Origin: a candidate division WOR-3 bacterium
GTDB lineage: Bacteria; Hydrothermota; Hydrothermia; Hydrothermales; JAJRUZ01
NCBI GenBank assembly: GCA_039803925.1
Contig: JBDRZL010000003.1
Location: 1-64,000, forward strand
Reading direction: 5' to 3'
Length of the DNA stretch: 64,000 bases
This document shows positions 479-16,854 of the stretch, one piece after another (within the stretch, counting starts at the first letter, position 1; each line of letters opens with the position of its first letter). The translations under genes were made by a program, and so were the position numbers. The notes under the pieces are model-generated. The model had not been told where the DNA came from. It did not search any database and saw only the letters and a list, made by a program, of their open reading frames with translations.

Positions 479-886
479 ATGAAAAAAATTGACTTTATTA
501 AACTTTTTTTCTGGTTTTTTATTTTTTTCTGGATAATTGTCCTTTTTGGAACTTCTTTAACATATTTAAGCTCAAGGGATGAGAAAAAACCCCTGTGGGT
601 TATTATAGATGAACTAAAAAATTTTCATGAACCAAAAGTAAATTTTTATAAATTAGAGAAACCTATTTTTTTATACTTTAATGGCTCAGAATTTTTTTCT
701 ATCTCAGCTATTTGCACATTCAGAAGGGCTATACTTGAATACAAGGAAAATGAAAATGTTTTATTTTGTCCTGTCCACGGAGAAAAATTTGACCTTAACG
801 GTAATCCTTTAAATAAAAAATTAAAAACACTCAAAAAGTATCAAGTTAGAATAAAGGGAGGAAAAATATATGTCCTTATTGAATAA
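479..886 (+). CDS. Degenerate Rieske-like protein
   Basis: A 135-residue membrane-anchored protein (hydrophobic helix about residues 8-28) with the Rieske fold signature in its C-terminal half. Box II reads C-P-V-H-G, keeping the two usual cluster ligands but with Val in place of the disulfide Cys. Box I reads C-T-F-R-R-A where the family, and the paralog at 14567, has C-T-H-L-G-C, so one histidine ligand and the other disulfide Cys are missing. The N-terminus begins M-K-K-I-D-F and has no twin-arginine motif, unlike the paralog. Its end overlaps the cytochrome b gene by 17 bases. A normal 2Fe-2S Rieske cluster looks unlikely (inference); it may be structural or hold a different centre. The ribosome-binding site GGAGGGG fixes the start. 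Confidence 0.75.
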   Translation: MKKIDFIKLFFWFFIFFWIIVLFGTSLTYLSSRDEKKPLWVIIDELKNFHEPKVNFYKLEKPIFLYFNGSEFFSISAICTFRRAILEYKENENVLFCPVHGEKFDLNGNPLNKKLKTLKKYQVRIKGGKIYVLIE

Positions 887-1958
887 AATACTTGAGTTTC
901 TTGAGAAAAGAATTTCCCTCAATGAGCTTGTATCATTTATAACTTCCTTCGGAATTTTCTATACACCCCTTCCCCACGATAAACCTGTTAAAGAAGCAAT
1001 AAAAGACGCAATGGAAACTCCTTCTCCATCATATACAAGATGGCCATATCTTCTCGGAATTCTAACTTTTATCTTATTTATCTTCTGTGTAGTATCAGGA
1101 ACTATGCTCCTTTTTTATTACATTCCATCAAAGGAAAATGCATACTCTTCCACTGTGGATACAATAATAAATAAACCCTTTGGCTTTTTCATATTTAATT
1201 TCCATTACTTTTCAAGCATAACACTACTTGTTATACTTATCTTCCGCCTTATAAGATTTATTTATCATAAAGTCTTCTCCCCACCCAGGGAATTTTTCTG
1301 GATTTTAGCATACCTTCTTTTTCTTTTGATTGTGTTTGAGTATATTACAGGAATTTCCTTACCAATGGACGGAAGCTCAGGATTTATGAGTTATAGAATT
1401 TATGAAATAATTTCACCAATACCAATTATCGGGAGCCTTTATAAAATTTTTCTATTTGCAGGCGAACTTTCAGATTTTTTCCTTTTAAGAAGCTACATTT
1501 TTCACATAATTATCTTACCTTTTTTTATTTTTTTCCTTTTCTATCTACATTTTCTTTCTGTAAGAAAACTGGGTTTATCAGATGGTTACTTTAGGGGCGA
1601 TAAAGTTTTCCCTGGATACTTTTTTGAAATTTTAATAATAGTGTTCCTTGCTTTTGCTATAATTTTCACACTCAGCAACATTTTCCCGAGAAAAATCTCA
1701 GAACCTTTTGTTCCTTATAAAAACTATGTAAATTATAAAGTTCCCTTCTTTTTACTGTTTTTTGATTTTCTGAGAACAAACCTTAACCAGATTTCTTATT
1801 CAATTTTATCCTTTATCCTTATTATTTTTCCATTCTTTCTCCCTTGGATTGATAGAACCCCACCAATTCCCCTCATAAAGAAACCACTTACATTTTTTCT
1901 TTATATCTTCTTTTTCAGTGTATTAATTTTTATATCCCTTTTAGAATTCCTGAAATGA
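870..1958 (+). CDS. Divergent cytochrome b (b6/IV-type) lacking a heme bH ligand and PEWY
   Basis: A 362-residue polytopic protein homologous along its length to the cytochrome b at 15014; both share the segment around Y-Y-I-P-S and the closing I-D-R-x-P. Helix D keeps both histidines at the 15-residue spacing seen in b6-type proteins. In helix B the first His is kept (N-F-H-Y-F-S), but the position 14 residues later, His in the paralog, is Arg (I-F-R-L-I-R). The PEWY tetrapeptide of the quinol oxidation site aligns with K-V-P-F. These are residues on which the Q cycle depends, so this subunit probably binds one b heme or binds the second differently (inference). Its ends overlap both the Rieske-like gene and the 9-heme gene. 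Confidence 0.8.
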   Translation: MSLLNKILEFLEKRISLNELVSFITSFGIFYTPLPHDKPVKEAIKDAMETPSPSYTRWPYLLGILTFILFIFCVVSGTMLLFYYIPSKENAYSSTVDTIINKPFGFFIFNFHYFSSITLLVILIFRLIRFIYHKVFSPPREFFWILAYLLFLLIVFEYITGISLPMDGSSGFMSYRIYEIISPIPIIGSLYKIFLFAGELSDFFLLRSYIFHIIILPFFIFFLFYLHFLSVRKLGLSDGYFRGDKVFPGYFFEILIIVFLAFAIIFTLSNIFPRKISEPFVPYKNYVNYKVPFFLLFFDFLRTNLNQISYSILSFILIIFPFFLPWIDRTPPIPLIKKPLTFFLYIFFFSVLIFISLLEFLK

Positions 1959-3082
1959 AAGGAATAATAATTTATTTATCATTCTTATCACAGATAGATT
2001 CAACAGGTTGCTTTTTGTGCCACAGTGAAATAAGACTTAACTACACAAAGAGCATTCACTATTATGAGAATGTCTACTGTTCTGATTGCCATGGTGGAAA
2101 TGAAAAATCCCTTGACATAAAAAAAGCCCATTCAGGGAATTTTAAAGGCAAATTCTCAAAAAAAGAAATTTTAAATTTATGCTCTAAATGTCATTCCTCA
2201 GCAGAAAAAATGGCTCCCTACGGCATAACCTTTGATCAATTTGAACTTTATATGCTTTCCGCTCACGGGAAATCTTTAAATAAAAAGAATAACATTCCTG
2301 TCTGCTCCGATTGTCACAATTACCATAATGTTTACAAAGCAAATGATATAAATTCTCCTGTAAATAAATCAAAGGTCTCATATTTATGCGGAAATTGTCA
2401 CAAAAAAGAATTTGAAGAATATTCTAAAAGCATACATTTTGAATATGTTAGAAGAGGAATAAAAGACTCTCCCACATGTCCTGATTGCCATGGTTCCCAT
2501 GGAGCCTATCCACCAGGTTTCAGAGATATTGATAAAATTTGTGGTAAGTGTCATGAAAATGTAAGAGCAAATTTTTTGAAAAGTCCCCATTATAAGGTAT
2601 TTGTTGAGATAAAAATTAAAGAATGCGAAGTATGTCATGGAAATCACAATATAGTCAAAGCCGATCTTACCACTTGGGATAAAAGCTGTATAAACTGTCA
2701 CGAAAAAGATAATAGTTCCTTAAAATTAAAAGAAGAGATCAAAACACTTCTTATTGAAACTGAAAATTCCTATAAAGATGCAACTGAATGGATCTCAAAA
2801 ATAGAAAAAATTCCTCTTGAAACAAAGGATTTAAAGGAAAGAATTAATGATGCAAATAATTCTCTTGCAGAAGAAATAGGTATTCTTCATACATTAAATA
2901 TTGAAAGAATAAAGGAAACCTATCTTCAATACAAGGGAGTTTATGACGATGTAAAACATGAAGCAATAAATAAATATAAACTGTTCCAGACAAGATACAT
3001 AATAATACCTGTTTTATGGATTTTAATTATAGTTACAGTTTTTTTAATTTTTGAATTCAAAAGGAGAGTAGAAAAAGCATGA
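1955..3082 (+). CDS. Nine-heme c-type cytochrome with C-terminal membrane anchor
   Basis: The 375-residue protein has nine CxxCH motifs, the first at residue 19 right after a very short hydrophobic leader. The heme part ends near residue 250; a helical, probably coiled-coil stretch then leads to a transmembrane helix at about 348-368 with a basic cytoplasmic tail. The layout (heme head, helical stalk, C-terminal anchor) matches the pentaheme protein at 16063, which sits in the same position after the intact cytochrome b. It is therefore probably the cytochrome c1/f replacement of the degenerate bc-like complex (inference). The start overlaps the preceding stop as ATGA, and its own stop overlaps the next start. 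No match to a named enzyme family is evident. Confidence 0.85.
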   Translation: MKGIIIYLSFLSQIDSTGCFLCHSEIRLNYTKSIHYYENVYCSDCHGGNEKSLDIKKAHSGNFKGKFSKKEILNLCSKCHSSAEKMAPYGITFDQFELYMLSAHGKSLNKKNNIPVCSDCHNYHNVYKANDINSPVNKSKVSYLCGNCHKKEFEEYSKSIHFEYVRRGIKDSPTCPDCHGSHGAYPPGFRDIDKICGKCHENVRANFLKSPHYKVFVEIKIKECEVCHGNHNIVKADLTTWDKSCINCHEKDNSSLKLKEEIKTLLIETENSYKDATEWISKIEKIPLETKDLKERINDANNSLAEEIGILHTLNIERIKETYLQYKGVYDDVKHEAINKYKLFQTRYIIIPVLWILIIVTVFLIFEFKRRVEKA

Positions 3083-4728
3083 GAAAAGTCTACATAATAA
3101 TCTTTTTTTCTTTCCTTACCTTCACAATTTTTATAATTTTTATAATTTTTTCATTTCAAATTACCTCCCATCCTAATTTTTGTGGTTCCTGTCATTATAT
3201 GAGACCTTACTTTGAATCCTGGAAAACATCATCCCATAATGGCATTCCATGCGTTGAATGTCACATTCCCCCTGGTATAACTTCTGAATTTAGAAAAAAA
3301 TATGAAGCCCTTGCAATGGTTGTAAGGTATTTTACAGGAACTTATAGCACAAATCCATGGGCTGAAATTGAAGATGCTGCCTGTTTAAAGTGTCATGAAA
3401 AGAGACTTTTATACGGGAAGGTGTATTTTAAAAATATTCTTTTTGACCATCAACCCCACTTGACAATGCTAAGGAGGGGGAAAAAATTGAAATGCACCTC
3501 CTGCCACTCTCAGATTGTTCAGGGAGCACATATAAAAGTTACTGAAAGCACATGTTTTATATGCCACTTCAAGGGAACAGAACTGGGGAAAGGAACAGCA
3601 AAATGCACAATGTGTCATGGTATGCCAAGAAAAAAAATAGAAATCGCCTCTTTTACATTTGATCACTCCGATGTTGAAAAATACAGTATGGATTGCCTCT
3701 TATGCCATGCTCATTCTGTTGAAGGATCTGGCTCAGTTCCTGAAGAAAGATGTTTTACATGTCATAATGAACCAGCAAGAATATCGGAGTATAAAAACAA
3801 TGAAAAAATACACGAAATTCATGTCACTATACATAAGGTGGAGTGTTTAAACTGTCATCAGGAAATTTATCATGGAAAACCAAGGGAAATAGAAGAGGTA
3901 ATAAAAACTCCATGCTCCACATGCCATTTGGAGGGACATACCCCGCAGAAAGACCTTTATATGGGAATTGGAGGAAAAGGTGTAGAACCAACTCCTTCAG
4001 TTATGTTTCTTTCAGGTGTAAGATGTGAGGGATGCCATATAATAGATAAAGAAGGGAAAATAAAAAAATCAGGTCCTTTTTCCTGTATGAACTGTCATGG
4101 TGCTTCCTACTACAGAATCTACAATTCCTGGAAAGAAAATATTGAAAAAAGAATAAAGGAGACTGAGAAAATCATAGATGAAGCAAAAAGTAAATTGAAG
4201 GACTCAGAATATTTAGAAAATGCTGAATATAATCTCAAACTTGTAAAAGAAGGAGGTGGTTTGCACAATGTTTTGTATTCTGAAAAATTATTGAAAAAAG
4301 CAGTTGATTTTATTAATGAAGGTTTAAAGGAAAAAGGAATTAGCCTTTATAAAACTGAAACTTTTCTTATAACAGAAGCAATAATTGAATGCACAAGATG
4401 CCACTACGGAGTTGAAAGGAAAATAAGCATCTTTGATGGAAAAACTTTCTCTCACTATATACATATTTTAAATAAAATAGAATGCAATAACTGCCACAAA
4501 GAAAATAAGGAAGAAAAACCACACATGATAACCCTTTTGAAAGAAAAAAAAGACTGTTTGCCCTGCCATCATAAAGAGAATATAAAAAAAGATTGTATTA
4601 CCTGTCATGGTAAAGAAATAAACTCCTACCACAACATCCATGTAAAGGAAATGGAGTTAAAATGTAATGAGTGCCATGGTAAAAATCTTTTAATAAAAGA
4701 AGATACCTGTTCACAGTGTCACTCTTAA
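3079..4728 (+). CDS. Eighteen-heme cytochrome with NapC/NrfH-type N-terminus
   Basis: The 549-residue protein has an N-terminal membrane anchor (about residues 5-26) followed by C-G-S-C-H-Y-M at residue 35. This CxxCHxM first heme is typical of NapC/NrfH quinol dehydrogenases, where the Met can ligate heme 1. Seventeen further CxxCH motifs follow, 18 in all. Between hemes 12 and 13 lies a charged helical insert of roughly 90 residues containing G-G-G-L-H-N, a helix-hairpin type seen in other multiheme proteins. It probably takes electrons from quinol or a cytochrome b and carries them along a periplasmic wire (inference). It is paralogous in layout to the protein at 8118. It overlaps its neighbours at both ends, indicating translational coupling. 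Confidence 0.85.
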   Translation: MRKVYIIIFFSFLTFTIFIIFIIFSFQITSHPNFCGSCHYMRPYFESWKTSSHNGIPCVECHIPPGITSEFRKKYEALAMVVRYFTGTYSTNPWAEIEDAACLKCHEKRLLYGKVYFKNILFDHQPHLTMLRRGKKLKCTSCHSQIVQGAHIKVTESTCFICHFKGTELGKGTAKCTMCHGMPRKKIEIASFTFDHSDVEKYSMDCLLCHAHSVEGSGSVPEERCFTCHNEPARISEYKNNEKIHEIHVTIHKVECLNCHQEIYHGKPREIEEVIKTPCSTCHLEGHTPQKDLYMGIGGKGVEPTPSVMFLSGVRCEGCHIIDKEGKIKKSGPFSCMNCHGASYYRIYNSWKENIEKRIKETEKIIDEAKSKLKDSEYLENAEYNLKLVKEGGGLHNVLYSEKLLKKAVDFINEGLKEKGISLYKTETFLITEAIIECTRCHYGVERKISIFDGKTFSHYIHILNKIECNNCHKENKEEKPHMITLLKEKKDCLPCHHKENIKKDCITCHGKEINSYHNIHVKEMELKCNECHGKNLLIKEDTCSQCHS

Positions 4729-5600
4729 TTTTAATTTTTTCTATAAACTGTTTAGACTGCCACCTTAAAAGCATTTATGATTCCCTTATGCAATCTCCCC
4801 ATAGAATTTTAAATTGTCTTGACTGCCATATATCCTTTGATAAATATCCGCATCCAGAAAAAGATAAAATTTGTGAAAATTGTCACACAGATGTTGTTGT
4901 GTTTTTCTACAGAAGTGACCATTTTGAACATCTTAATTGCTATTCCTGTCACGGAAGTCACAAAACTTTATCATTTAAAATTTACGGCTCTAAAATCATA
5001 ATTTCAGAAAAATGTTCAACCTGTCACTTGAAAGAGGGAGATGATTACAAAAAAAGTATCCACTTTTTATCTCTTAAAAAAGGCATAGAGGATGCACCAT
5101 CCTGCATTGATTGTCATTCAGAGCATTATATTTTATCCCCCTTAAAAAAAGAATCACCTGTTTACTACAAAAATGTTCCAAAAACATGTGCTAACTGTCA
5201 TGAAAATAAAGCCATAACCGAAAAATATGGATTACCACCTAGAAGATTTTCAACCTACCTAAAAAGTTATCACGGTCTTTATTTAGAGGAAGGCATTTTA
5301 AAATCTGCCAATTGTGCTTCCTGTCATGGAAATCACCTGATTTTACCAGCGGAGGACGAAAAAAGTCCGATACACCCCTTAAACCTTCCAAAAACCTGCG
5401 GAAAATGTCACCCTGTTGCAGATATAAAATTTACACAGGGTAAAATCCATGTGGAAGCCAAAAGAGAAATAGCACCCTATGTTTACGCAGTCAGATTATT
5501 TTATACAATTTTTATTTCAATTCTTGTTTTTGGTTTTATTATGCATATAATTTTTGATATTATAAGATACAGAAAAAAAAGGAGGGAAAATGAAAAATAA
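4716..5600 (+). CDS. Nine-heme c-type cytochrome, membrane anchored
   Basis: The 294-residue protein carries nine CxxCH motifs and a C-terminal transmembrane helix (about residues 258-280) with a basic tail. The leader is only about ten residues long (M-S-L-L-I-L-I-F-S) before the first heme motif. The last five heme segments (S-C-I-D-C-H, T-C-A-N-C-H, N-C-A-S-C-H, T-C-G-K-C-H with their K-S-Y-H-G and K-I-H-V spacers) closely resemble those of the proteins at 6255 and 10051, so the three share a domain. The gene begins inside the end of the 18-heme gene and ends inside the start of a cytochrome b gene. It is probably the periplasmic electron acceptor of that cytochrome b (inference, supported by the fusion at 10051). 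Confidence 0.85.
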   Translation: MSLLILIFSINCLDCHLKSIYDSLMQSPHRILNCLDCHISFDKYPHPEKDKICENCHTDVVVFFYRSDHFEHLNCYSCHGSHKTLSFKIYGSKIIISEKCSTCHLKEGDDYKKSIHFLSLKKGIEDAPSCIDCHSEHYILSPLKKESPVYYKNVPKTCANCHENKAITEKYGLPPRRFSTYLKSYHGLYLEEGILKSANCASCHGNHLILPAEDEKSPIHPLNLPKTCGKCHPVADIKFTQGKIHVEAKREIAPYVYAVRLFYTIFISILVFGFIMHIIFDIIRYRKKRRENEK

Positions 5601-6258
5601 AATATTAAGATTTTCAAGGTCATGGAGAGTTCAGCATATGCTTTTAATGATAAGCGTTTTATTACTCATTCTTTCAGGTTTTTCCCTAAAATATTCCCAT
5701 ACCACTTTCGGTAAAATACTGATTTTTCTTGAAGGAGGATTTGAAGCAAGGGGAGCACTTCACAGAATGTCAGCTTTTTTATTAATTTTTACAACAATAT
5801 ATCATTTTATTTACATACTTTTTACAAAAGAAGGCAGAAAGGAATTTAAATTGCTTTTACCATGCAAAAAGGATTTTAAAGATTTCATTGATAGTATTTT
5901 ATATGATATAGGAAAAACAGATAAAAAACCCGAATTTGATAGGTATTCCTACAAAGAAAAAATGCAATACTGGGTAATTTCCCTTTTAATACTTATAATG
6001 GTTCTTTCTGGTATAATTCTTATTTTTCACAACTACTTCTTTATCATTTTTCCAAAATGGATTATCGACTTTTCCCTTTCCCTTCATTCATGGACTGCTA
6101 CAATTGTTATAATATTTTTAATTTTGTGGCATTTTTATATAGTCCATCTTTCACCTTCAAATTTTCCTATAAACTTTTCCTTCTGGGATGGTTATGTAGA
6201 CGAAGACTGGTTAAAAGAAAATCATTATTTAGAATATAAAAAGATAAAGGAGAAATGA
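5590..6258 (+). CDS. Membrane cytochrome b (FdnI/HydC-like four-helix type)
   Basis: The 222-residue protein has four predicted membrane helices and histidines in the pattern of di-heme cytochrome b subunits of formate dehydrogenases and hydrogenases: V-Q-H in helix 1, A-L-H-R and I-Y-H in helix 2, S-L-H and L-W-H-F-Y in the last helix. Such subunits pass electrons between the quinone pool and a periplasmic partner. The partner here is presumably the nine-heme protein at 4716, with which the gene overlaps by 11 bases. It is paralogous to 7264 and to the C-terminal third of 10051, sharing the loop L-F-T-K-E-G-R. The direction of electron flow cannot be told. Confidence 0.8.
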   Translation: MKNKILRFSRSWRVQHMLLMISVLLLILSGFSLKYSHTTFGKILIFLEGGFEARGALHRMSAFLLIFTTIYHFIYILFTKEGRKEFKLLLPCKKDFKDFIDSILYDIGKTDKKPEFDRYSYKEKMQYWVISLLILIMVLSGIILIFHNYFFIIFPKWIIDFSLSLHSWTATIVIIFLILWHFYIVHLSPSNFPINFSFWDGYVDEDWLKENHYLEYKKIKEK

Positions 6259-7274
6259 GCTTAATTTTAGTTTTTATTTTTATTTTACAGGCACCTTTAG
6301 AAGAAGATAGAAGGTGTCTTTTATGTCACGGTAAAAAAGATTTTGGAATTGTTGAGGAAGGTAAATTTAAAAGTCTATATGTAAGTTATGAAGAACTTAA
6401 AAATTCTGTCCATAAAAAATTTTTATGTCAACAATGTCACAATGATGTTAGAGTAATACCTCACCTTATAAAACCAAAAAAAATTCACTGTTTGCAATGT
6501 CATTTTGAAGGAAATGTTGTTGGAGCACCCACTGAGAAAAAACCTGAAAAATATAAAGAAAGTATTCATGAAAAGGGAAAAAGGGAAGGAAAAAAAGTCC
6601 CTGAATGTATGGATTGCCACGGAATTCACAATGTAAGAGCACCTGAAGATAGCCTTTCAAGTGTATATAAAAAGAATGTTCCCTCAACATGCGGAGAATG
6701 TCATATGAATCAAAGGGAAGAATATGAAACATCAATTCACTGGCAGGGTATAAAGAAAGGGATAATTGGATCTGCTGTTTGTAATGATTGTCATAGAGAA
6801 CATGATGTTTTGCCACCTGAGGATCCGAGGTCAAGTTTAAATCCAAAGAATGTTATAAAAACCTGTGAGAAATGCCACGCAAATGTTGAGTTAATGAAAA
6901 AAACCGGTGTACCTGTAAAACAGGTAGAAGCTTACAAGGAAAGTTTTCATGGGATTGCCCTTGAGTTTGGTGTTTTAAAAGCTGCAAACTGCACTTCCTG
7001 CCATGAACACCACAAAATTTTACCTCAAAGAGACCCCAGATCTCCAATTCATCCTGACAATTTACCCAAAACATGTAGCAAGTGTCACCCCAATGCTTCA
7101 CAGAATGTAGCAAAAGGAAGAATTCATGTTTTACCTCAAGAAAAGGAATCAGGTATTATATTTTATGTTTATAACTTTTTTAAAATCTTTACCTTTCTTG
7201 TTATAACAGGTCTTATAATCCACATATTACTTGACCTCTATGGTAGATTAAGGAGGAGAAAGCATGGAGAATAA
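6255..7274 (+). CDS. Nine-heme c-type cytochrome, membrane anchored (paralog of 4716)
   Basis: The 339-residue protein has nine CxxCH motifs, a short leader (residues 1-12, no basic n-region) and a C-terminal transmembrane helix (about 303-325) ending in R-R-R-K-H. The spacing of hemes 4-9 and motifs such as V-P-S-T-C-G-E-C-H and D-P-R-S-P-I-H-P repeat those in 4716 and 10051. The start overlaps the preceding cytochrome b stop (ATGA) and the end overlaps the following cytochrome b start, so 6255 and 7264 form a second nine-heme/cytochrome b pair copied from the first or from a common ancestor (inference). Confidence 0.85.
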
Positions 7275-8121
7275 AGAATTAGAGGAAAAATTTATTGAAG
7301 AAATTGAAAAGGAAGAAAAAATTGAAATAGATGAAAAATTGAAGGAAAAAATAAAAAGGGAAATCAAGGAAAAATATAAAAAAGAGTTTGAAAGGTTAAA
7401 AAAGGAAAAAGAAAAAAAAGAAAAGGAAGAAAAGATAAAAGAAGAATATTTTATAAGATTCAGCTTAAATGTAAGACTTCAGCACTTATTTCTTGCTATT
7501 GGTGTTTTGATTCTTATATTTACAGGTCTACCTATAAAGTTTCATGAAGCAGGATGGGCCAAGATGTTCCTTAAAATAATGGGTGGAATACAGGTATCAA
7601 GGTTGCTTCATAGAATAGGAGCAAGTATACTTATTTTCGTTTCCTTCTGGCATATTTTCTACATTCTTTTTACAAAAGAAGGCAGAAGGGAATTCTGGGA
7701 ACTTTTACCCAGAATAAAAGATTTTAAAGATTTCTTCCAGAACATTAAATATTTTCTTGGACTTAAAGGGGAAAAACCAAAATTCGGAAGATTTTCATAT
7801 GTGGAAAAATTTGATTACTGGGCTGTTTACTGGGGTATGGTGATAATGGTTTCTACTGGTTCTATTCTGTGGTTTCATAACTTTTTTATTGGTATTCTTC
7901 CAAAATTTGTAATAGATATTGCAAAAGAAGCACATTCAGATGAAGCAATGCTTGCAACTCTTGCCATTGTTATATGGCACTGGTATAATGCCCATTTTAA
8001 CCCTGAGGTATTTCCCTTCAATCCCACCATTTTTACAGGAAAAATTTCAAAAGAGAGAATGCTAAAAGAACATCCCCTTGAATACGAAAGAATAATGAAG
8101 GAAAAAGAAAACAAAAAATGA
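7264..8121 (+). CDS. Membrane cytochrome b with charged N-terminal coiled coil
   Basis: Residues 1-60 of this 285-residue protein are almost entirely Lys, Glu and Ile and form a predicted cytoplasmic helix or coiled coil absent from the paralog at 5590. Residues about 65-270 form the four-helix cytochrome b module with the same histidine pattern: L-Q-H, L-L-H-R, F-W-H, E-A-H and I-W-H-W-Y. It pairs with the nine-heme gene at 6255 (11-base overlap) and its stop overlaps the start of the second 18-heme gene. It probably transfers electrons between quinone and the nine-heme partner (inference). The N-terminal extension could dock a cytoplasmic partner, but no such partner is evident here. Confidence 0.8.
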
Positions 8122-10031
8122 GAAAACTTGCTTTCATTTCTTTGTTATTTTTCCTGATCCTTTCTTACCTTTCAATAATTTTCTTTAAAGCTACCGATAA
8201 TCCTGATTTTTGTAATACCTGTCACTTTATGAAACCCTATTATGATAACTGGGCAAGTTCTTCACATAATACAGTCCCATGTTATAAATGCCATTATGGA
8301 CCAGGAAAAAAGGAATACATAGGGGGAAAATTGAGGTTAACGGGTGAAATATTAAGATACTTTGCAGGATTTTACTCAAAAGAAATAAAAACAAAAGTAA
8401 AGGACGATGCTTGTTTAGAATGCCATAAAAAAGAAGAATTTTTAAATAAGGAAATTAAATTTACTGAGAAAGAAATAAGTTTTAACCACAATTTCCATTT
8501 AAATGATAAAACAAATAACCTTAACTTCAGGTGCCAGAACTGTCATTCAGAACTTGTTCAGGGAAAACATACTGCAGTTTCAATCAAGGTATGCATTTTA
8601 TGTCACTTTATTGGTGGAGAATTTGGGAAAAAAGGTGAATGTGGAATCTGTCACGGACCGCCAAAGGAAGAACTTCTTATTTGGGGGGTTCCTTTTAAAC
8701 ACTATGAATATATTAAAGGTGGCGTTGATTGTCTAACTTGTCACTTAAATGTTATATCTGGCAGAGGAGATATAAAATCAGAAAAATGTCTTGAATGTCA
8801 CATTGAAGTTAAAAGAGAATTTCTTGATAAAAGAAAAATACACGATATTCATGTCCATGGAGAAAATATTTCCTGTTTCAGGTGTCATGAGGAAATTAAA
8901 CACGGAAAAATATTAGTGACACAGGTTTTCTCACCACAATGCCAGGAATGTCACGGAAATGCCCACTTTGTTCAGGAAAAAATTTATTCAGGAACAGGAG
9001 GAATTGGAGTACCAAATCTTCCTGATAGAATGTTTATTGCAGGTGTTATATGTCAGGGCTGTCATAAAGTTAATTTAGAAAGAACTTTAACTGGTCCTCA
9101 TTTTAAACTACCAAAGGCTAATCCTTCTGAATGTGTTTTCTGCCATGGAAAAAATTTTGATAAACTCCTTTTAAAATGGCAAAACCTTGTAAAAGAGAGG
9201 ATTGAAAGAATAAAGAAGAGAGAAAAAATTTATTCCCTGTTAAAAGATTTAAAAATTCTTCAATATGATTCAAAAAAGATTGAATTAAATCTTGAACTTG
9301 TTAATAAGGATAAAAGTTTCGGAGCTCATAATATAAGATATATAAATCTTTTACTTGATGAAGTTGAAAAAGAATTAAAAATTGATACAAAAAAACCAGA
9401 TATTGAAAAAATTTATAGTAACAATCCAAAATGTATTGAGTGTCATTTCGGTGTTGAAAATAAAAATTTATATTTTAAAAATAAAGAATTTTTACATGGT
9501 CCCCATCTATTTAATTATAAATGTAATGACTGTCATATAGAAGATGAACCTTCAAAGGATCTTCACGGCAATTTAAAAAAAATATCGGAAGACTGTAATT
9601 CCTGTCATCACCAAAAGGAAAAAAATTGTGAAGATTGCCATAAAATACAGAAAGAATTTTATAGTGGTGAATATCTTTCAGAATCAATGGATGTAATGAA
9701 AGAAGCTGGAATAGATTGTTCGGATTGTCACATTGAAGAAGGAAAAATTATAAGACCAGAACCATCTATTTGTTCAAATTGTCATGAAACAAGTTATGAA
9801 AAAGATTTTGCTGAAAAATTAAATTTTATTAAATCAGAAATAAAAAAATTTGAATTTAGAATTGAAGAAATAGTAAATAAATTAAAGGAAAAAGGAAATA
9901 AAAAAGAAATTATTGATTTTTACAATTTTCTTGAAGAATATGAAAAATTTAAAAAAGAAGGTTCCTACGGAACACACAATATAATGTTTATGGAGGAATT
10001 TTTTAGAAAAATTAAAAAGTACAATTATTAA
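8118..10031 (+). CDS. Second eighteen-heme cytochrome with NapC/NrfH-type N-terminus
   Basis: The 637-residue protein starts with a membrane anchor (about residues 4-23) and C-N-T-C-H-F-M at residue 32, the same CxxCHxM first-heme motif as in the protein at 3079. It has 18 CxxCH motifs in the same order, and a helical insert with F-G-A-H-N-I after heme 12. It is longer than its paralog because a second helical hairpin with Y-G-T-H-N-I is added at the C-terminus. The segments around hemes 9-12 ([18 protein letters not shown]) align easily with 3079, so the two arose by duplication. The role as a long periplasmic electron conduit is inferred. Confidence 0.85.
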
Positions 10032-10050
10032 TTAAAAGGAGGAGGGGAAA

Positions 10051-12213
10051 ATGATTTTAATCTTTTTTTTAATTTTATTTGAAAACAGTGATTGTTTAGT
10101 ATGTCACGAAGATATAAAAATGCCAGGAAGAGCCCATGAAAAGGTAAAGTGCAGTGATTGTCATACAGGAATCAAAGAATTACCCCATGAAGTACCCTTA
10201 AGTAATGTCAACTGTGGACTATGCCACAAAGAGGAAATGGGAGTTTTTGAAATGGATCCACATGAGAGGGCAAGGAAAAAGGGAAATTTGAAAGCTCCAG
10301 GTTGCACTGATTGCCATGGAACCCATGATATAGAACCTGTAATAGAAGTAAAATCAAAACTTCACCCCCTTAATCTGGATAAATTTTGTGCAACATGCCA
10401 TCCTTCAGTTTCTGTTCCTGAAAAATACCATGCTGTTTTGTACCCTTCGGAAAAATGTCTTGAATGTCACGACAAAGAAATAAAAGAAAAACTAAGAAAA
10501 TCAGTTCACAAAAATCATGAGTGTGTTGATTGTCATAGAACTGTATACAGTCTTGAACCTGACGGAAAACATGTAAAAAAATTAAACTGTAAGGATTGCG
10601 GGTTATGCCACAGGAAGGAATGTGAGGAACATGAGATAAGCATACATGGAATGGGCATAAAGGAAAAAAAGCCTGCTGCAAAATGCTGGGACTGTCATGA
10701 TAGCCACGAAATTCTTGAAGCTTTTAATAAAAATTCAAAAGTTTATTATGTAAATTTACCTGAAACTTGTGGAAAATGTCATTCAAAACCTGAATTTGCT
10801 GAAAAATGGGGAATCACAATAAAAAATCCCTATGCTTTATATGAAGAAAGCATTCATCATGAAATGCTACTTAAAGGTGAAAGAGCAGCAACCTGTTCTG
10901 ACTGTCATGGAGTTCATAATATAGTTCCCCATAGAGATATCTTATCAACAATTTATAAACAGAATGTTCCTAAAACCTGTTCAAAATGTCATGAAAAGGA
11001 ATACATGGAATATGTAAAAAGTGACCATTTCCGCGCAATAAGATTTGGAAACTTTGATGCTCCCTCCTGCATAGACTGTCACTCAGAACACAGAATACTT
11101 CCTCCCTGGGATCCAAAATCTCCTGTTTATCCCTTGAACATACCAAAAACATGTGCTGATTGTCATGAAAGTGTAAAACTGAGTGAAAGATACGGAATAC
11201 CTGTTATGGAATTAAAAAGTTACCTTGCAAGTTACCATGGTGTAAAACTTGGAGCAGGTAATATCAAAGTTGCAAACTGTGCATCCTGTCATGGTAATCA
11301 TTCTATACTTCCTTCAAGTGATCCTGAATCACCTGTAAATAAGAAAAATTTACCAATTACCTGTGGAAAATGTCACAAAGGTATTGCGGAAAAAACAGGT
11401 TTCATTGGTCCTATTCATGAGCGGATAGATAGAAATATTCAAATAATAAAAAAGATTGTGTCCCTTATTTACATATTGCTCATAATAGTCACAATAACAT
11501 CAATGATAATTTATTGCTTTTTTGATTACTGGAAGAAAAGAAAGGAATTTTTTATAAAAGGATTTAGAGAATTTAAACTTGAAAAGGTTGAAAATACTAA
11601 ATTTTCCTATTTTGAAAGAAGATTGCATTTAATCCACATAATTTCTTTCTTTATTCTCGTTTATACAGGTTTTGCACATCATTATCCAGAAAATTTCTTT
11701 TTCAGCTTTTTTGTTAAAATAGGAAATGGTGCCTTGAGAGCATATTTACACAGAATTGCAGGCACTTTAACGATCATTTCTTTTATAATTACGGTCTTAC
11801 TTATGTTATTTACAAAAAAAGGGAGAGAAAAATTTTCAAAAATTTTATTTAATCTTAAGGACATCTCAGATGCAATAAATTTACTTTTATATAACCTGAA
11901 TATAAAGAAAGAAAAACCAGAACTGAACCACCCATTTACCTTTTATGAAAAATTTGAATTCTGGGCTTTGGTATGGGGAACTATTGTAATGAGTATAACA
12001 GGTATTGCTCTATGGTTTAAGGATTTCTTTTTAAATTTCATGCCCTCATTTATACTTGATATATTCCTTTTGATTCACTTTTATGAAGCTATCCTTGCAA
12101 CTCTTGCAATATTAACCTGGCATTTCTACTGGGCAATTTTTGATCCTGAAGTTTACCCTATGAATCCTTTGATGTTTGAGGACAGAGTTTTCTCATATTA
12201 TCTAAAAAAATAA
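10051..12213 (+). CDS. Sixteen-heme cytochrome fused to a membrane cytochrome b
   Basis: The 720-residue protein has a very short leader (M-I-L-I-F-F-L-I-L-F), 16 CxxCH motifs over residues about 15-450, a transmembrane helix near 468-490, a basic linker, and then the four-helix cytochrome b module (about 510-715) with R-L-H, Y-L-H-R, I-H-F-Y-E-A and T-W-H-F-Y. The last hemes match the nine-heme proteins at 4716 and 6255, so this single chain corresponds to the separate pairs 4716+5590 and 6255+7264. One His present in helix 2 of both stand-alone cytochromes is Thr here. A ribosome-binding site GGAGGGG precedes the ATG. A quinone-linked multiheme oxidoreductase subunit is the likely role. Confidence 0.85.
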   Translation: MILIFFLILFENSDCLVCHEDIKMPGRAHEKVKCSDCHTGIKELPHEVPLSNVNCGLCHKEEMGVFEMDPHERARKKGNLKAPGCTDCHGTHDIEPVIEVKSKLHPLNLDKFCATCHPSVSVPEKYHAVLYPSEKCLECHDKEIKEKLRKSVHKNHECVDCHRTVYSLEPDGKHVKKLNCKDCGLCHRKECEEHEISIHGMGIKEKKPAAKCWDCHDSHEILEAFNKNSKVYYVNLPETCGKCHSKPEFAEKWGITIKNPYALYEESIHHEMLLKGERAATCSDCHGVHNIVPHRDILSTIYKQNVPKTCSKCHEKEYMEYVKSDHFRAIRFGNFDAPSCIDCHSEHRILPPWDPKSPVYPLNIPKTCADCHESVKLSERYGIPVMELKSYLASYHGVKLGAGNIKVANCASCHGNHSILPSSDPESPVNKKNLPITCGKCHKGIAEKTGFIGPIHERIDRNIQIIKKIVSLIYILLIIVTITSMIIYCFFDYWKKRKEFFIKGFREFKLEKVENTKFSYFERRLHLIHIISFFILVYTGFAHHYPENFFFSFFVKIGNGALRAYLHRIAGTLTIISFIITVLLMLFTKKGREKFSKILFNLKDISDAINLLLYNLNIKKEKPELNHPFTFYEKFEFWALVWGTIVMSITGIALWFKDFFLNFMPSFILDIFLLIHFYEAILATLAILTWHFYWAIFDPEVYPMNPLMFEDRVFSYYLKK

Positions 12214-12272
12214 AAATTAATATATTTTCTTTTTGAAATTAAATAGTTAAAAAAATTAAAATTATAAAAATT

Positions 12273-13388
12273 ATGATAAGAATCTTAAAAATTCTTTCTC
12301 TTTTTTATTTTTTGGGCTGTGGTAGAAATATTAATATTTATTTTTTGGTATCTCTTTCTGGACCTGAAAAAGTTTACGGAAAAGAAGCAGAAAAGGGAAT
12401 AAAGCTTTTTTATGAGAAGATTAAAGACAAAAAAATTAAAGGAAAAAAAATAAATGTAATAATAAGGGATACAGAAAGTGATATAAATAAAATAAAAAAA
12501 ATTTTTGAAGAAATTAAAGAGGATAGAAACTCTTTTATTATAATCGGACCCGAAATTTCTAAATTTGCTATTTTTGCATCCTTAATTGCTGAAAAGAATA
12601 AAATCCCCATCATAACTCCCACAGCAACTAACCCACTTGTTACAGAAGGTAAAAATTTTGTTTTCAGATTAACCTATACAGATATTGCTCAGGGTTCATA
12701 TTTGGCAAAATTTGCTATTCGTAATTTAAAAAAGAAAAAGGCTATAATTCTATTTGAAGCTCAAAATCCTTATTCAGAAGAACTTTCAAAACAGTTTGAA
12801 GCAGTATTTAATAAAGAGGGGGGAGAAATTTTATTTAAAACCTTCTATTTAAAAGGAGATACCTCTTTTTCTAAACAGATAGAGAATTTTAAAAAATATA
12901 AACCAGATCTTATTTTTATTCCAGGATATGTTAAAGAAGTAAGTATGTTTATTAAAGAAGCATATAAAAAGGGATTAAATATTACTTTTTTAGGTGGTGA
13001 TGGATGGTATTCTCCCCTTTTAATAAGTTCCCTTAAAGATATATGGAAGGAAGGTGTAGAAGCATTTATCACTTCTCCCTTTTCTCCTTTTGATACATCA
13101 AAAAATGTAATAAAATTTTTAAATGATTTTAAAAATAAATATAAAGAAACTCCTTCCTTTGTTTCCGCACTTTATTATGATGCTTTTAATCTTTCTGTTT
13201 ATATAATTGAAAATTTGCAAAAAATTGATAGGGAAGAATTTGTAAAAAATCTTACTAATCTAAAAAATTTCATAGGAGTAACAGGTAGAATAAGTTTTAA
13301 TGGTAAAAAAGACCCTGACAGGGAGGTATTTATTTTAAAGCCAGAAGAAGAAGGATTTAAGTTTATTACAAAACTTTATTTTGAATAA
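12273..13388 (+). CDS. Leu/Ile/Val-binding-type solute-binding lipoprotein (orphan)
   Basis: The 371-residue protein has a leader ending in a lipobox (Y-F-L-G-C, Cys near 16), then a type I periplasmic binding fold: S-L-S-G-P near residue 30, G-P-E-I-S for the first lobe, the hinge region P-I-I-T-P-T-A-T-N and later L-G-G-D-G-W-Y-S. It belongs to the receptor family that includes LivJ and amidase regulators. No permease or ATPase genes accompany it; it lies between two cytochrome genes on the same strand, six bases before a pentaheme gene. It could be a ligand sensor or substrate carrier for the respiratory cluster, but this is only inferred from position. No ribosome-binding site is visible at the ATG. 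Confidence 0.75.
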   Translation: MIRILKILSLFYFLGCGRNINIYFLVSLSGPEKVYGKEAEKGIKLFYEKIKDKKIKGKKINVIIRDTESDINKIKKIFEEIKEDRNSFIIIGPEISKFAIFASLIAEKNKIPIITPTATNPLVTEGKNFVFRLTYTDIAQGSYLAKFAIRNLKKKKAIILFEAQNPYSEELSKQFEAVFNKEGGEILFKTFYLKGDTSFSKQIENFKKYKPDLIFIPGYVKEVSMFIKEAYKKGLNITFLGGDGWYSPLLISSLKDIWKEGVEAFITSPFSPFDTSKNVIKFLNDFKNKYKETPSFVSALYYDAFNLSVYIIENLQKIDREEFVKNLTNLKNFIGVTGRISFNGKKDPDREVFILKPEEEGFKFITKLYFE

Positions 13389-13394
13389 AGGAAT

Positions 13395-14564
13395 ATGATA
13401 GCTATATTAATATTAAATTTTACATTAGCATCAAAATGTGGTGAGTGTCATACTGATATATATAAGGAATGGAAAAATTCACTTCACGCACAGAGCTTTG
13501 AAGACCCAGTATTTCAAGATGCTTACAAAAAAATCATAAATACCGAAGAACAAAAACTCTGTTTAACCTGTCATGTTCCCACTGTTTCTGAAACAAAAGA
13601 TTATATGATAAAACAGGAAATATCAAAGGAAGGAATAACATGTGATTTCTGTCACAGTGTAAGGGATGTTAAAAATGGAAATTTTGAACTTGAAATAGGT
13701 AACATAAAATTTGGTCCAATTTCAGATATTCCTGAAAATTTAAATATAGGCCACAAGAATAAATATTCTGAAATTTTCTCAAAAGCTGAATTCTGCAAAA
13801 CCTGTCATGAATTTAAAAATAAGTATGGAGTTTATGTTCTTGATACTTACAATGAATGGAAAAACAGTGAATACAGTGCAAAGGGAATTCATTGTCAAAA
13901 CTGTCATATGACAGAAATACCTTTTACAAAAATTGTGGATCCAAAAGTTTATCCTTCAAAAAGACACATAACGGATCACAAGTGTTTAGGTGGACATTCA
14001 GAAATAAGATTAAAAAAAGCAGCATCTCTTAATGTCTTATATAAGGTTGAAAATAAAAAAATAATAACAAGTGTATATGTTACAAATAATGAGTCAGGAC
14101 ATAAATTACCAACAGGGATACCTATAAGAAAATTAATTCTTGAAGTCTCACTTGTTAATAAATTTGGAGAAATTATTAAAAAGCAAAGCAAAATTTATCA
14201 AAGGGTTTTAGTGAATAAAAATAATGAGGTAATAGATGAAATAGATAAAATTTTCACAGAGGCTTATAGGGTTTTTGATGATAATAGAATTTCTCCAAAA
14301 GAGACAAGAAGAGAAGTTTTTACCTTTGATATAAAAGATAAGGGTCCCTATTTTTTAAAAACGCAACTTAAATATGAATACAGGATCCCTTCCCTTGAAC
14401 CTGATGTAATGCTTTTTTTAATACAGGAAAAGGAATTATTAATTGAAACTGAAAAACCATTGAAAATTGGAAAACTAAGTTTTATAATATTTTCTTTAAT
14501 TATTTTTTTAATTTTTTTTTATATACTTATATCATTTTTAAAAACATTTAAAAAGGAGGGATAA
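13395..14564 (+). CDS. Pentaheme cytochrome of the c554-like multiheme family
   Basis: The 389-residue protein has a nine-residue hydrophobic leader and five CxxCH motifs in residues 15-175. The first, K-C-G-E-C-H followed by W-K-N-S-L-H-A, is typical of c554-like multiheme cytochromes. The motif C-L-G-G-H near residue 197 is not a heme site but the usual glycine-rich H-x-x-x-G-G-H element of this family. A beta-rich domain follows with N-E-S-G-H-K-L-P-T-G, another family hallmark, and a C-terminal transmembrane helix (about 362-382). It lies two bases before the Rieske gene, so it probably belongs to the bc-type complex as an additional electron carrier (inference). Confidence 0.8.
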   Translation: MIAILILNFTLASKCGECHTDIYKEWKNSLHAQSFEDPVFQDAYKKIINTEEQKLCLTCHVPTVSETKDYMIKQEISKEGITCDFCHSVRDVKNGNFELEIGNIKFGPISDIPENLNIGHKNKYSEIFSKAEFCKTCHEFKNKYGVYVLDTYNEWKNSEYSAKGIHCQNCHMTEIPFTKIVDPKVYPSKRHITDHKCLGGHSEIRLKKAASLNVLYKVENKKIITSVYVTNNESGHKLPTGIPIRKLILEVSLVNKFGEIIKKQSKIYQRVLVNKNNEVIDEIDKIFTEAYRVFDDNRISPKETRREVFTFDIKDKGPYFLKTQLKYEYRIPSLEPDVMLFLIQEKELLIETEKPLKIGKLSFIIFSLIIFLIFFYILISFLKTFKKEG

Positions 14565-14566
14565 AA

Positions 14567-15001
14567 ATGGAAAATAAAAGAAGAAATTTTTTAAAAAATT
14601 TAGCCTGGTTTTTACTATCAATAACAAGCTTAATTTTTATCTTTCCGGTTTTTTTTTATCTTTTACCTAAAAGGGAGGAAAAGAGACTCAACATTTTTAC
14701 AGATAAAAATGGAAATCCAATACCTGAAAACATAGTTAAGGAGGGAAGTTACGAGCTTGGTCTATCCCAGGATGGTCCAACTATTTTAATAAGAAGAGAA
14801 GGAAAGCTTTATGCCTTTTCAGCAGTATGTACTCACTTGGGATGTATTGTTAAATGGGTACCTGAGAAAAATGAATTTTTCTGCCCATGTCATGCAGGTA
14901 GATTTGATGCCAATGGAGCTGTTATCTCCGGACCTCCACCTTCTCCTTTAAAAAAATATAAAGTAGATATAACATCTGAAGGTATTATTGTCCTTTCTTA
15001 A
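14567..15001 (+). CDS. Rieske iron-sulfur protein of the bc-type complex
   Basis: The 144-residue protein has a twin-arginine leader/anchor (K-R-R-N-F-L-K then a hydrophobic helix to about residue 31), consistent with Tat export of a folded protein. Box I C-T-H-L-G-C and box II C-P-C-H-A-G contain all four cluster ligands and both disulfide cysteines, and the G-P-P-P-S-P-L proline loop is present. It should carry a normal 2Fe-2S cluster that accepts electrons at the quinol oxidation site of the cytochrome b encoded 12 bases downstream. An AAAGGAGGG ribosome-binding site precedes the ATG. It is the intact counterpart of the degenerate protein at 479. Confidence 0.93.
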   Translation: MENKRRNFLKNLAWFLLSITSLIFIFPVFFYLLPKREEKRLNIFTDKNGNPIPENIVKEGSYELGLSQDGPTILIRREGKLYAFSAVCTHLGCIVKWVPEKNEFFCPCHAGRFDANGAVISGPPPSPLKKYKVDITSEGIIVLS

Positions 15002-15013
15002 AGGGAGGGAAAA

Positions 15014-16066
15014 ATGAAAAATTTATTCAAGGCAGTTGATGAAAGATTAAAATTAAGCGAGCTTTATGAAAAATATCTATCAGGTTATATGGTTCCTGAA
15101 AACCTGAATTTCTGGTATTCAATGGGCGCTGTATGTCTTACTTTTTTCCTGATACAGATTGTAACAGGAATTCTTCTCCTTATGTATTACATTCCATCAG
15201 TTGAAAAAGCTTTTGAAAGTGTCACCTTTATTACGAATGAAGTTACCTTCGGATGGCTTATAAGAAGGGTTCATGCAGTAGCAGCAAACATATTTGTTCT
15301 TGCCCTATTTTTTCACATGCTTTCAACCTTAATAATGGGATCATACAAAAAGCCAAGGGAGATACACTGGATTACAGGATGTTTACTTTTTGCTCTTGTT
15401 CTTGTTGAGTGCCTGTCAGGTTACCTTCTTCCCTGGAGTCAGCTTTCCTACTGGGCAACTTCAGTTGCTACAAGTTTTCCTGGTGCTTTTCCCTTTATAG
15501 GTGAGTGGCTTGTTTATTTAATAAGGGGCGGAGAAAAAATAACTCAATTCACCCTCGGAAGATTCTTCTCAATCCATGTCTCCTTTATACCTTTCACAAT
15601 CTTTGTTTTAATTGCCATACATATTTTCGTTATGAGAAGAACGGGAATATCCTATCCTCCCGGAACTGATGAAACAAAGGTTAAAAAGATACCCTTCTTT
15701 CCCCATTTTGCTCTTAAAGATTTAAAAATTATATATTTATTTTTAGCCTTAACATTATTCATTGTATTCTTTTTCCCTCAACTTGTTATACCTCATGATG
15801 CCCTCATTCCTGCTGACCCACTTTCAACACCAGAGCACATAAAGCCGGAATGGTATTTTCTTGCCAACTACCAATTTTTAAAATTGATTCCCAATGAATT
15901 TCTCGGAATTTTCTTACAGATTTTGATAGCTCTTCTTATCTTTCTAATTCCTTTTATTGATAGAAATCCAGAAAGGAGAATATGGAAAAGACCCCTATTT
16001 TTCGGAGCTGTGGTTTTTGGTATAGCTTTTTATATTTTATTAACAATCTGGGGGTACTTATCATGA
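15014..16066 (+). CDS. Cytochrome b of the bc-type complex (b6 and subunit IV fused)
   Basis: The 350-residue protein has eight predicted helices. The four b-heme ligands are visible: R-V-H-A-V-A-A-N and F-F-H-M in helix B, S-I-H-V and A-I-H-I-F in helix D. The helix D spacing of 15 residues matches b6-type rather than mitochondrial cytochrome b. K-P-E-W-Y, the conserved quinol-oxidation motif, is present, as is the closing F-I-D-R-N-P. It should oxidise quinol with the Rieske protein and pass one electron across the membrane. The stop overlaps the start of the next cytochrome gene (ATGA). The fused length is typical of bacteria whose cytochrome c1 is replaced by multiheme proteins. Confidence 0.93.
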   Translation: MKNLFKAVDERLKLSELYEKYLSGYMVPENLNFWYSMGAVCLTFFLIQIVTGILLLMYYIPSVEKAFESVTFITNEVTFGWLIRRVHAVAANIFVLALFFHMLSTLIMGSYKKPREIHWITGCLLFALVLVECLSGYLLPWSQLSYWATSVATSFPGAFPFIGEWLVYLIRGGEKITQFTLGRFFSIHVSFIPFTIFVLIAIHIFVMRRTGISYPPGTDETKVKKIPFFPHFALKDLKIIYLFLALTLFIVFFFPQLVIPHDALIPADPLSTPEHIKPEWYFLANYQFLKLIPNEFLGIFLQILIALLIFLIPFIDRNPERRIWKRPLFFGAVVFGIAFYILLTIWGYLS

Positions 16067-16854
16067 AAAATAAATTTATAATCTTATTTTTTTTAATATA
16101 CCCTTTAAAACTTTTATCTTATGAAAAAACTGTGTGTATAAAATGTCATCTTGAAAGTGGTGATGAATATTTAATTAAACCTGTCCATGAATGGGAAAAA
16201 AGTATACATGCTGAAAATGCTATTTCCTGTCATAACTGCCATGGTGGTAATCCAAAGGATGAGGAAACTGCCATGAGTGAAGAATTTGGCTTTATTGGAA
16301 AACCTAAATATGAAGAAGTTCCTGAATTCTGCGGAAAATGCCATGCGGGTGTTAAGGAAAATTATTTAAAAAGTGCTCATGGACAAACTCTCCCTGATGG
16401 TCCAAACTGTGTTACCTGTCATACAGCTCACAGTCAGCAAAAAGCCGGACTTTTCCTAATTAATCCAGAACTATGTTCAACCTGTCACGATTATGAAAGA
16501 GCTGAAAAAATCAAATTTGCACTTATGAATACTGAAAATACAATTTTAAAATTATCTAAAAAAATAGAAGAACTATGGATAAATGGATTCAATGTAGATG
16601 AATTGAATAAAAATCTCTTTGCAACAAGAAACTCTTTCAGGAGATTAACCCACATTGTCGAAGTTGATTACATTCTTGAACAAACCGGAGGAATTTATTC
16701 AGATCTTGGAAAAATTGAAGAAGAAATTAAAAAGAAAGAAGATATACTTAATAAGAGAAAATTATTAGGTGCTATAGTTATAATTTTCCTTTTAATCTCT
16801 GCATATGTTTTTGGAAAAATTTATGAGGAATTAAAAAAAGAAATAAAATCTTAA
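16063..16854 (+). CDS. Pentaheme cytochrome c, C-terminally anchored (c1/f replacement)
   Basis: The ATG at 16063 overlaps the cytochrome b stop as ATGA and begins a normal 20-residue signal peptide, so it is preferred to an upstream in-frame start inside cytochrome b. The 263-residue product has five CxxCH motifs between residues about 29 and 145, then a helical stalk, a transmembrane helix (about 232-252) and a basic tail. The same head-stalk-anchor layout occurs in the nine-heme protein at 1955. It is probably the electron acceptor from the Rieske protein in place of cytochrome c1 or f (inference from gene order and architecture). Its stop shares one base with the next start. Confidence 0.85.
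   Translation: MKNKFIILFFLIYPLKLLSYEKTVCIKCHLESGDEYLIKPVHEWEKSIHAENAISCHNCHGGNPKDEETAMSEEFGFIGKPKYEEVPEFCGKCHAGVKENYLKSAHGQTLPDGPNCVTCHTAHSQQKAGLFLINPELCSTCHDYERAEKIKFALMNTENTILKLSKKIEELWINGFNVDELNKNLFATRNSFRRLTHIVEVDYILEQTGGIYSDLGKIEEEIKKKEDILNKRKLLGAIVIIFLLISAYVFGKIYEELKKEIKS

Follow-up and report, generated by a model that had tools for sequence, protein, structure and literature searches.

A run of multiheme cytochrome and cytochrome b genes lies at about positions 479-16854 of a 64,000-nucleotide stretch of DNA (contig JBDRZL010000003.1, positions 1 to 64,000, of GenBank assembly GCA_039803925.1; hereafter the window) from an uncultured, thermophilic bacterium of candidate phylum WOR-3 (Caldifarciminota at NCBI), in the same order as Candidatus Hydrothermus. 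This array is confirmed, is conserved in relatives, and has an unusual composition. The reading that is favoured here, with some confidence and on the basis of sequence comparison, is that the cluster is an operon, kept in relatives, which encodes several quinol:multiheme-cytochrome oxidoreductases working in parallel, some CbcL/CbcBA-like and some NapC/NrfH-like, and that extracellular electron transfer probably starts from them at the inner membrane. As such the array is a variation on known quinol:multiheme-cytochrome systems, and its most novel part is a Rieske/cytochrome b module, M1, which is described separately below.

Layout and conservation of the array

Gene content, motifs and their losses, conservation, and module borders were read directly from the sequences. 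Six adjacent proteins (9hA, 18hB, 9hC, 9hE, 18hG, and H in the list below) carry 9, 18, 9, 9, 18, and 16 CxxCH motifs, and the total of 79 agrees exactly with the count given in an earlier note on this DNA. When the six proteins were shuffled with preservation of their composition (2000 trials), the mean number of motifs was 0.5 and the maximum was 5. Two pentaheme proteins at 13395-14564 and about 16063-16854 raise the cluster total to 89, as had also been stated. The extent proposed in the earlier note, 1955-12213, describes the six-protein core correctly but not the limits of the operon: its first genes are a Rieske-like/cytochrome b-like pair (479-1958), and the array extends to a canonical Rieske/cytochrome b pair at 14567-16066. 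The reported run of overlapping genes was recovered, with overlaps of 4-17 bases between neighbours over 479-10031, and the gaps between genes after 10031, up to 16854, are of 59 bases or fewer; an operon spanning about 479-16854 is therefore likely.

Four modules were delimited using hidden Markov model (HMM) scans and hydropathy. M1 consists of a Rieske/cytochrome b pair, a 9-heme protein (9hA), and an 18-heme protein (18hB); M2 of two 9-heme/FdnI-type cytochrome b pairs (9hC-cbD and 9hE-cbF) and a second 18-heme protein (18hG); M3 of protein H, a 16-heme domain fused to an FdnI-type cytochrome b; and M4 of a canonical Rieske/cytochrome b/5-heme trio at 14567-16854, upstream of which lie genes for a LivK-like lipoprotein and for a pentaheme protein resembling cytochrome c554. 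The genes are as follows (TM, transmembrane).

479-886 (+): Rsk1 (M1), Rieske-fold protein with one N-terminal TM helix; PF00355 9.2e-8, alignments
870-1958 (+): cytb1 (M1), cytochrome b6-type; PF13631 8.6e-23, aligned to cytochrome b6 of PDB 1vf5
1955-3082 (+): 9hA (M1), 9-heme periplasmic protein with C-terminal TM anchor; motif count, HMM scan, hydropathy
3079-4728 (+): 18hB (M1), 18-heme protein with N-terminal TM helix, NapC/NrfH-like domain (CxxCHxM), and OcwA-like middle; PF03264 1.1e-11
4716-5600 (+): 9hC (M2), 9-heme protein with C-terminal TM helix; motif count, HMM scan, hydropathy
5590-6258 (+): cbD (M2), FdnI/b561-type di-heme cytochrome b; PF01292 8.6e-15
6255-7274 (+): 9hE (M2), 9-heme protein with C-terminal TM helix; motif count, HMM scan, hydropathy
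7264-8121 (+): cbF (M2), FdnI/b561-type di-heme cytochrome b; PF01292 8.4e-13
8118-10031 (+): 18hG (M2), 18-heme paralogue of 18hB with C-terminal helical extension; motif count, homology to 18hB
10051-12213 (+): H (M3), 16-heme domain, TM helix link, and FdnI-type cytochrome b domain; PF01292 4.7e-12, residues 518-699
12273-13388 (+): Peripla_BP_6 (LivK-like) lipoprotein; PF13458 4.7e-41
13395-14564 (+): 5hI, pentaheme cytochrome c554-like protein with C-terminal TM helix; PF13435 9.2e-12
14567-15001 (+): Rsk2 (M4), canonical Rieske protein (CTHLGC/CPCH, Tat RR); PF00355 9.5e-14
15014-16066 (+): cytb2 (M4), canonical cytochrome b; PF00033 1.3e-56, PF00032 1.7e-19
16063-16854 (+): 5hJ (M4), pentaheme c subunit with C-terminal TM helix; PF14537 2.9e-8

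A scan of GTDB with an alignment of 9hE identified five loci, in Candidatus Hydrothermus pacificus JdFR-72, two WOR-3 genomes, and two Kryptonia genomes. Within the phylum, 9hE was matched at 1e-10 in nine of 147 genomes, and at full length only in the window's genome (G000), G001, G003, G004, and G014; G001 and G002 belong to the same genus as the window, G003 to the same family, and G004, which is Candidatus Hydrothermus pacificus, to the same order. A check of gene order in relatives, as the earlier note had proposed, found it kept in G001 and G004, split in G003, and decayed in G002. The series Rsk1-cytb1-9hA-18hB-9hC-cbD-9hE-cbF-18hG-H is whole and collinear in G004 and in G001, where it is spread over two contigs with overlapping ends. 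The genes of G003 occupy three separate places cut exactly at module borders (8-heme-FeS-NrfD-Rsk1-cytb1-9hA-18hB-Rsk2-cytb2-5hJ; 9hC-cbD-9hE-cbF-18hG; LivK-H). An FeS-NrfD pair precedes M1 in G004 too, and this NrfD was present in G003 and G004 only among 17 genomes. Truncated 9hC, cbD, and 18hG stand beside an intact M4 in G002 (L028, 9267-11139), from which full-length M1 and M3 are gone and which has only one cytochrome b of the Rieske-partner type. G014 holds only 9hE-cbF-18hG plus a distant M1, and G007 and G012 have an M1-type set and no full 9hE match. The Kryptonia array is a rearranged ten-gene version in a single run, H'-cbD-9hE-cbF-18hG-18hB-4heme-Rieske-cytb-11heme-porin-like. The LivK-like lipoprotein adjoins cytochrome modules in three genera, including those of G003 and G004 (window 12273-13388; L024 1673-2797; L030 509-1348; L023 17138-18963).

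The earlier note had raised the possibility of one large assembly, in which every module would belong to a single quinol-driven multiheme machine. The overlapping genes, the collinearity in G001 and G004, and the contiguous, though reordered, Kryptonia run would all fit such a supercomplex. However, the arrangements in G003 (M1 with M4, M2, and H at three places), G014, G007, and G012 indicate that the modules persist apart, and a single machine appears quite improbable. The conservation pattern, as far as sequences can tell, instead supports functional linkage combined with modularity over one obligatory complex.

FdnI-type and NapC/NrfH-like modules

The FdnI-like cytochrome b modules that had been noticed among the multiheme genes were identified by Ni_hydr_CYTB (PF01292) matches at 5590-6258, 7264-8121, and the C-terminus of 10051-12213. 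Both cbD and cbF match E. coli FdnI (1kqf_C, profile E 3.9e-12) and retain all four histidine heme ligands, and cbF is the best conserved protein of the array (72-82% identity in relatives). For protein H, the match to 1kqf_C has an E of 0.0013, the ligand histidines align, and the hydropathy profile contains one linking TM helix and about five peaks; a search of a plasmid collection found no homologue of this protein. The cytochrome b clades of cbD, cbF, and H each include WOR-3 and Kryptonia sequences, which bears out the proposed growth by duplication and, because each clade spans both phyla, implies that the duplications predate the split or transfer.

The assignment of the 18-heme proteins to the NapC type was upheld by NapC/NrfH-like N-termini on both. 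The curated cut-off of NapC/NirT PF03264 was passed by 18hB alone (45.2 vs 24.1 bits; TM residues 6-24), and 18hG, which is homologous to 18hB, fell below it (20.3 vs 24.1 bits). Neither protein reached the NrfH equivalog TIGR03153 (51.5 and 52.1 vs 134.2 bits). In the 18-heme profile, residues 192-423 correspond to OcwA (PDB 6i5b, E 1.1e-22), and the N-terminus matches NrfH (2j7a). A fold search of the PDB with the 18-heme model returned OcwA as the sole match (E 2.4e-3, from a weak model). Helical hairpins bearing a GxHN motif occur in both 18hB and 18hG, one of them within the OcwA-like region.

Comparison with described systems places most of these parts in known families. In Geobacter CbcL, a 9-heme domain and a cytochrome b are fused in one protein (PMC6295460, PMC9129911, PMC6148476, PMC12307469), and members of the CbcL/MtrH/MtoC family join a periplasmic multiheme domain with 3-23 CxxCH motifs to a membrane FdnI/HydC-like di-heme cytochrome b (PMC6295460, PMC9129911). 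Protein H, compared with this family by its description, has the same architecture, with 16 motifs (within the family range) and a C-terminal FdnI/HydC-like b domain with conserved histidines and about six TM helices. The pairs 9hC/cbD and 9hE/cbF resemble two-gene versions of CbcL; by description they are also like CbcBA, a CbcL-like two-gene c-type/b-type inner-membrane complex (PMC6148476, PMC12307469), although the array has two such pairs, with 9-heme partners, in one operon. In contrast to CbcL, three modules of this kind share one operon here with a pair of NapC/NrfH-like 18-heme proteins and with two Rieske/cytochrome b pairs. NapC-type quinol dehydrogenases are common (PMC6295460, PMC9129911, PMC6148476, PMC12307469), and 18hB and 18hG share with NapC, NrfH, and CymA the N-terminal TM helix and the NapC-type first hemes (CxxCHxM), but they contain 18 hemes rather than 4-5 and continue into an OcwA/NrfA-like region and GxHN helical hairpins.

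Rieske proteins and b6-type cytochromes b with multiheme c partners have been described in the anammox clusters Kuste4569-4574 and Kustd1480-1485 and in the Nap-linked complex of Caldithrix (PMC12954380, PMC5317091). The array resembles these in having multiheme instead of monoheme c partners, whereas M1 differs in the absence of a heme bH ligand, of PEWY, and (in the window's family) of the Rieske ligands, in its 9- and 18-heme partners, and in the lack of an NAD(P) module. The homologous ten-gene array of Candidatus Kryptonium thompsonii has another gene order, intact Rieske ligands and PEWY, and no 9hC. No cluster of the array's composition was found in the literature compared on CbcL-type systems; to this extent the earlier statement that no such complex had been described stands, but its parts are known from CbcL, CbcBA, and NapC types.

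Module M1

M4 has all the features of a canonical Rieske/cytochrome b complex (Rieske ligands, four b-heme histidines, and PEWY), and in its trio 5hJ occupies the place of 9hA in M1, as determined by alignment with 9hA. In the window, M1 has none of the three intact: the [2Fe-2S] ligand set, the two b-heme histidine pairs, or PEWY. The earlier note had not remarked on the degeneration of this Rieske/cytochrome b pair. In Rsk1, boxes 1 and 2 read CTFRRA and CPVH in place of CTHxxC and CPCH, and there is no Tat twin arginine. Alignment of cytb1 with 1vf5 and other solved cytochromes b6 indicated that the heme bL ligands H112/H212 and also H227 of the bH pair are retained, and that the helix-B ligand of heme bH is replaced by Arg126, which is invariant in the window, G001, G003, and G004. 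Both bH ligands are lost in the M1 cytochrome b of G014 and both are retained in those of G007 and G012. At the class level, the bL ligands are present in all six M1 homologues and PEWY is absent from all six; PEWY is present in the M4 and Kryptonia cytochromes b. A branch with 100/100 support separates the six M1 cytochromes b from the other sequences, and given this grouping the loss of bH ligands in the window's order and in G014 was probably independent. One Kryptonia cytochrome b (L033, 16952-18070) has Tyr at the first helix-B His, and the other Kryptonia genome has His.

Rieske ligands are lost in M1 of the window and G001 (CTFRRA, CPVH) and of G003 (CTFRRG, CPVH), partly lost in G012 (CTFAPC), and intact in G004, G014, and G007. 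The twin-arginine motif is missing from all four proteins with lost ligands (window, G001, G003, and G012) and present in 12 of 13 ligand-intact Rieske proteins, the exception being Rsk2 of G002 (KK); this count was made by eye, a regular expression having overlooked ARRKFF in G054a, and no more than two independent events underlie the association. Since the Tat system carries cofactor proteins across the membrane in the folded state, loss of the motif is an independent sign that the Rieske cluster is truly lost.

Judged by its substitutions, M1 is under constraint. Its frames are open with no stop codons, and the dN/dS of cytb1 is 0.25 relative to G001 and 0.14 relative to G003, the latter value being limited by a dS at or near saturation, which counts against leaning on it. 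A functionless, decaying bc complex would be compatible with the faster evolution of M1 than of M4 (59% identity for cytb1 and 83% for cytb2 between the window and G003), but the open frames, the low dN/dS, the constant position beside 9hA and 18hB, the invariant Arg126, and the universal heme bL ligands make decay very improbable. Sequencing error or a pseudogene was ruled out as the source of the Rieske and cytochrome b changes, which are common to G001 and G003, lie in open frames, and show low dN/dS. A hetero-dimer of cytb1 with cytb2 cannot be general, since G004 has cytb1 without cytb2. Values of dS relative to G001 are 0.03-0.05 across M1 (479-4728) and mostly 0.1-0.2 downstream (LivK 0.08), which looks as if M1 was recently exchanged by recombination.

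Without one of its bH ligands, PEWY, and (in the window's family) the Rieske ligands, M1 cannot run a Q cycle. A tentative reading is that M1 descends from a bc complex, has kept heme bL, and may now carry electrons linearly from quinol to multiheme partners, as an oxidase or as a relay through heme bL, PEWY and a bH ligand having been lost before the Rieske cluster and Tat export. As a remodelled, non-Q-cycle device it would most likely relay electrons through heme bL into 9hA/18hB, or serve as a mere anchor. Among the papers listed by a literature search on natural cytochromes b that lack bH or PEWY, only studies of engineered or canonical bc1 appeared.

Probable electron route and possible acceptors

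FdnI-type cytochromes b and NapC/NrfH anchors hand menaquinol electrons to multiheme partners. In the array, cbD, cbF, and the C-terminus of H would draw electrons from quinol at the inner membrane, the anchors of 18hB and 18hG would likewise oxidise quinol, and the M4 trio would represent a third quinol-oxidising type in which a Q cycle is possible. Electrons would then enter the 9-, 16-, and 18-heme periplasmic arms, which may act as wires and capacitors leading to cytochromes of the periplasm and probably of the outer membrane or the cell exterior. Quinol oxidation, flow direction, an extracellular acceptor, and physical contact between modules are what we infer. Geobacter CbcL, CbcBA, and ImcH run in parallel and are tuned to acceptor potential (PMC12307469, PMC6148476, PMC9129911), which provides a precedent for parallel modules.

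Further multiheme genes in the same genome could continue the route outward. Locus L036 (6428-11926) encodes a 4-heme protein, a 525-aa strand-rich protein, 9-, 8-, and 7-heme proteins, and an NHL propeller; L040 (3150-8089) encodes 8- and 6-heme lipoprotein-like proteins, a 359-aa strand-rich protein, and a 12-heme protein; and L037 encodes a 12-heme protein. The strand-rich proteins of L036 and L040 gave no match to a Pfam barrel domain. Among 60 genomes, the 525-aa porin-like candidate was present only in G000, G001, and G003, all of which carry the array, and the 359-aa candidate in G000 and G001 only; both are missing in G002, where the array has decayed. This co-occurrence is suggestive and phylogenetically confounded. 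The last gene of the Kryptonia array encodes a weakly Porin_4-like protein, and a unique pathway of iron respiration has been predicted for Kryptonia (PMC4737851).

Several observations weigh against the favoured reading. G004 carries the array and has neither candidate barrel protein, and the AlphaFold2 models of the 525-aa candidate (pLDDT 30) and of 18hG (pLDDT 58) are too poor to support a porin or to place hemes, respectively. The WOR-3 isolate sy37, which may or may not carry the array, reduced neither ferric citrate nor ferrihydrite (PMC12285271). Genes resembling alternative complex III and heme-copper oxidase are present in the window's genome as well (L039; identified by eye except for the FeS domains), so that O2 is another possible sink.

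A HAO-like octaheme cytochrome, a possible periplasmic reductase, is encoded at 36792-38006 of the window on the minus strand (PF13447, Multi-haem_cyto, 1.1e-26). The array might feed a periplasmic reductase of this kind rather than an extracellular acceptor, as the presence of the gene within the window and the OcwA/MccA/NrfA-type region of the 18-heme proteins would allow. The octaheme gene, however, is about 20 kb distant and oppositely oriented, the array loci of relatives yielded no counterpart, and the porin-like last gene of the Kryptonia array points outward; we regard such a supply line as unlikely. Electrons could also flow in reverse, from Fe(II) or a partner cell into the quinone pool, given that Fe(II) oxidisers carry homologues of CbcL/MtrH/MtoC (PMC6295460) and that CbcBA is thought to operate in the reverse direction in the bacterial partners of ANME (PMC10553843). 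The sequence is silent on direction, but no evidence of lithotrophy emerged in this analysis, and reverse flow is rated as rather unlikely.

Under the favoured reading of parallel quinol-oxidising modules, the array would bring a little-studied thermophilic phylum into the range of multiheme, probably extracellular, respiration on its inner-membrane side, in a form shared with Kryptonia, and it would hold more quinol-oxidising module types per operon than the described Geobacter and Shewanella systems compared. The M1 series, from canonical-looking Rieske proteins in G004, G014, and G007 to ligand-less ones in G012 and the window's family, would constitute a stepwise natural experiment in the losses that a cytochrome bc complex can undergo, part by part, and still persist.

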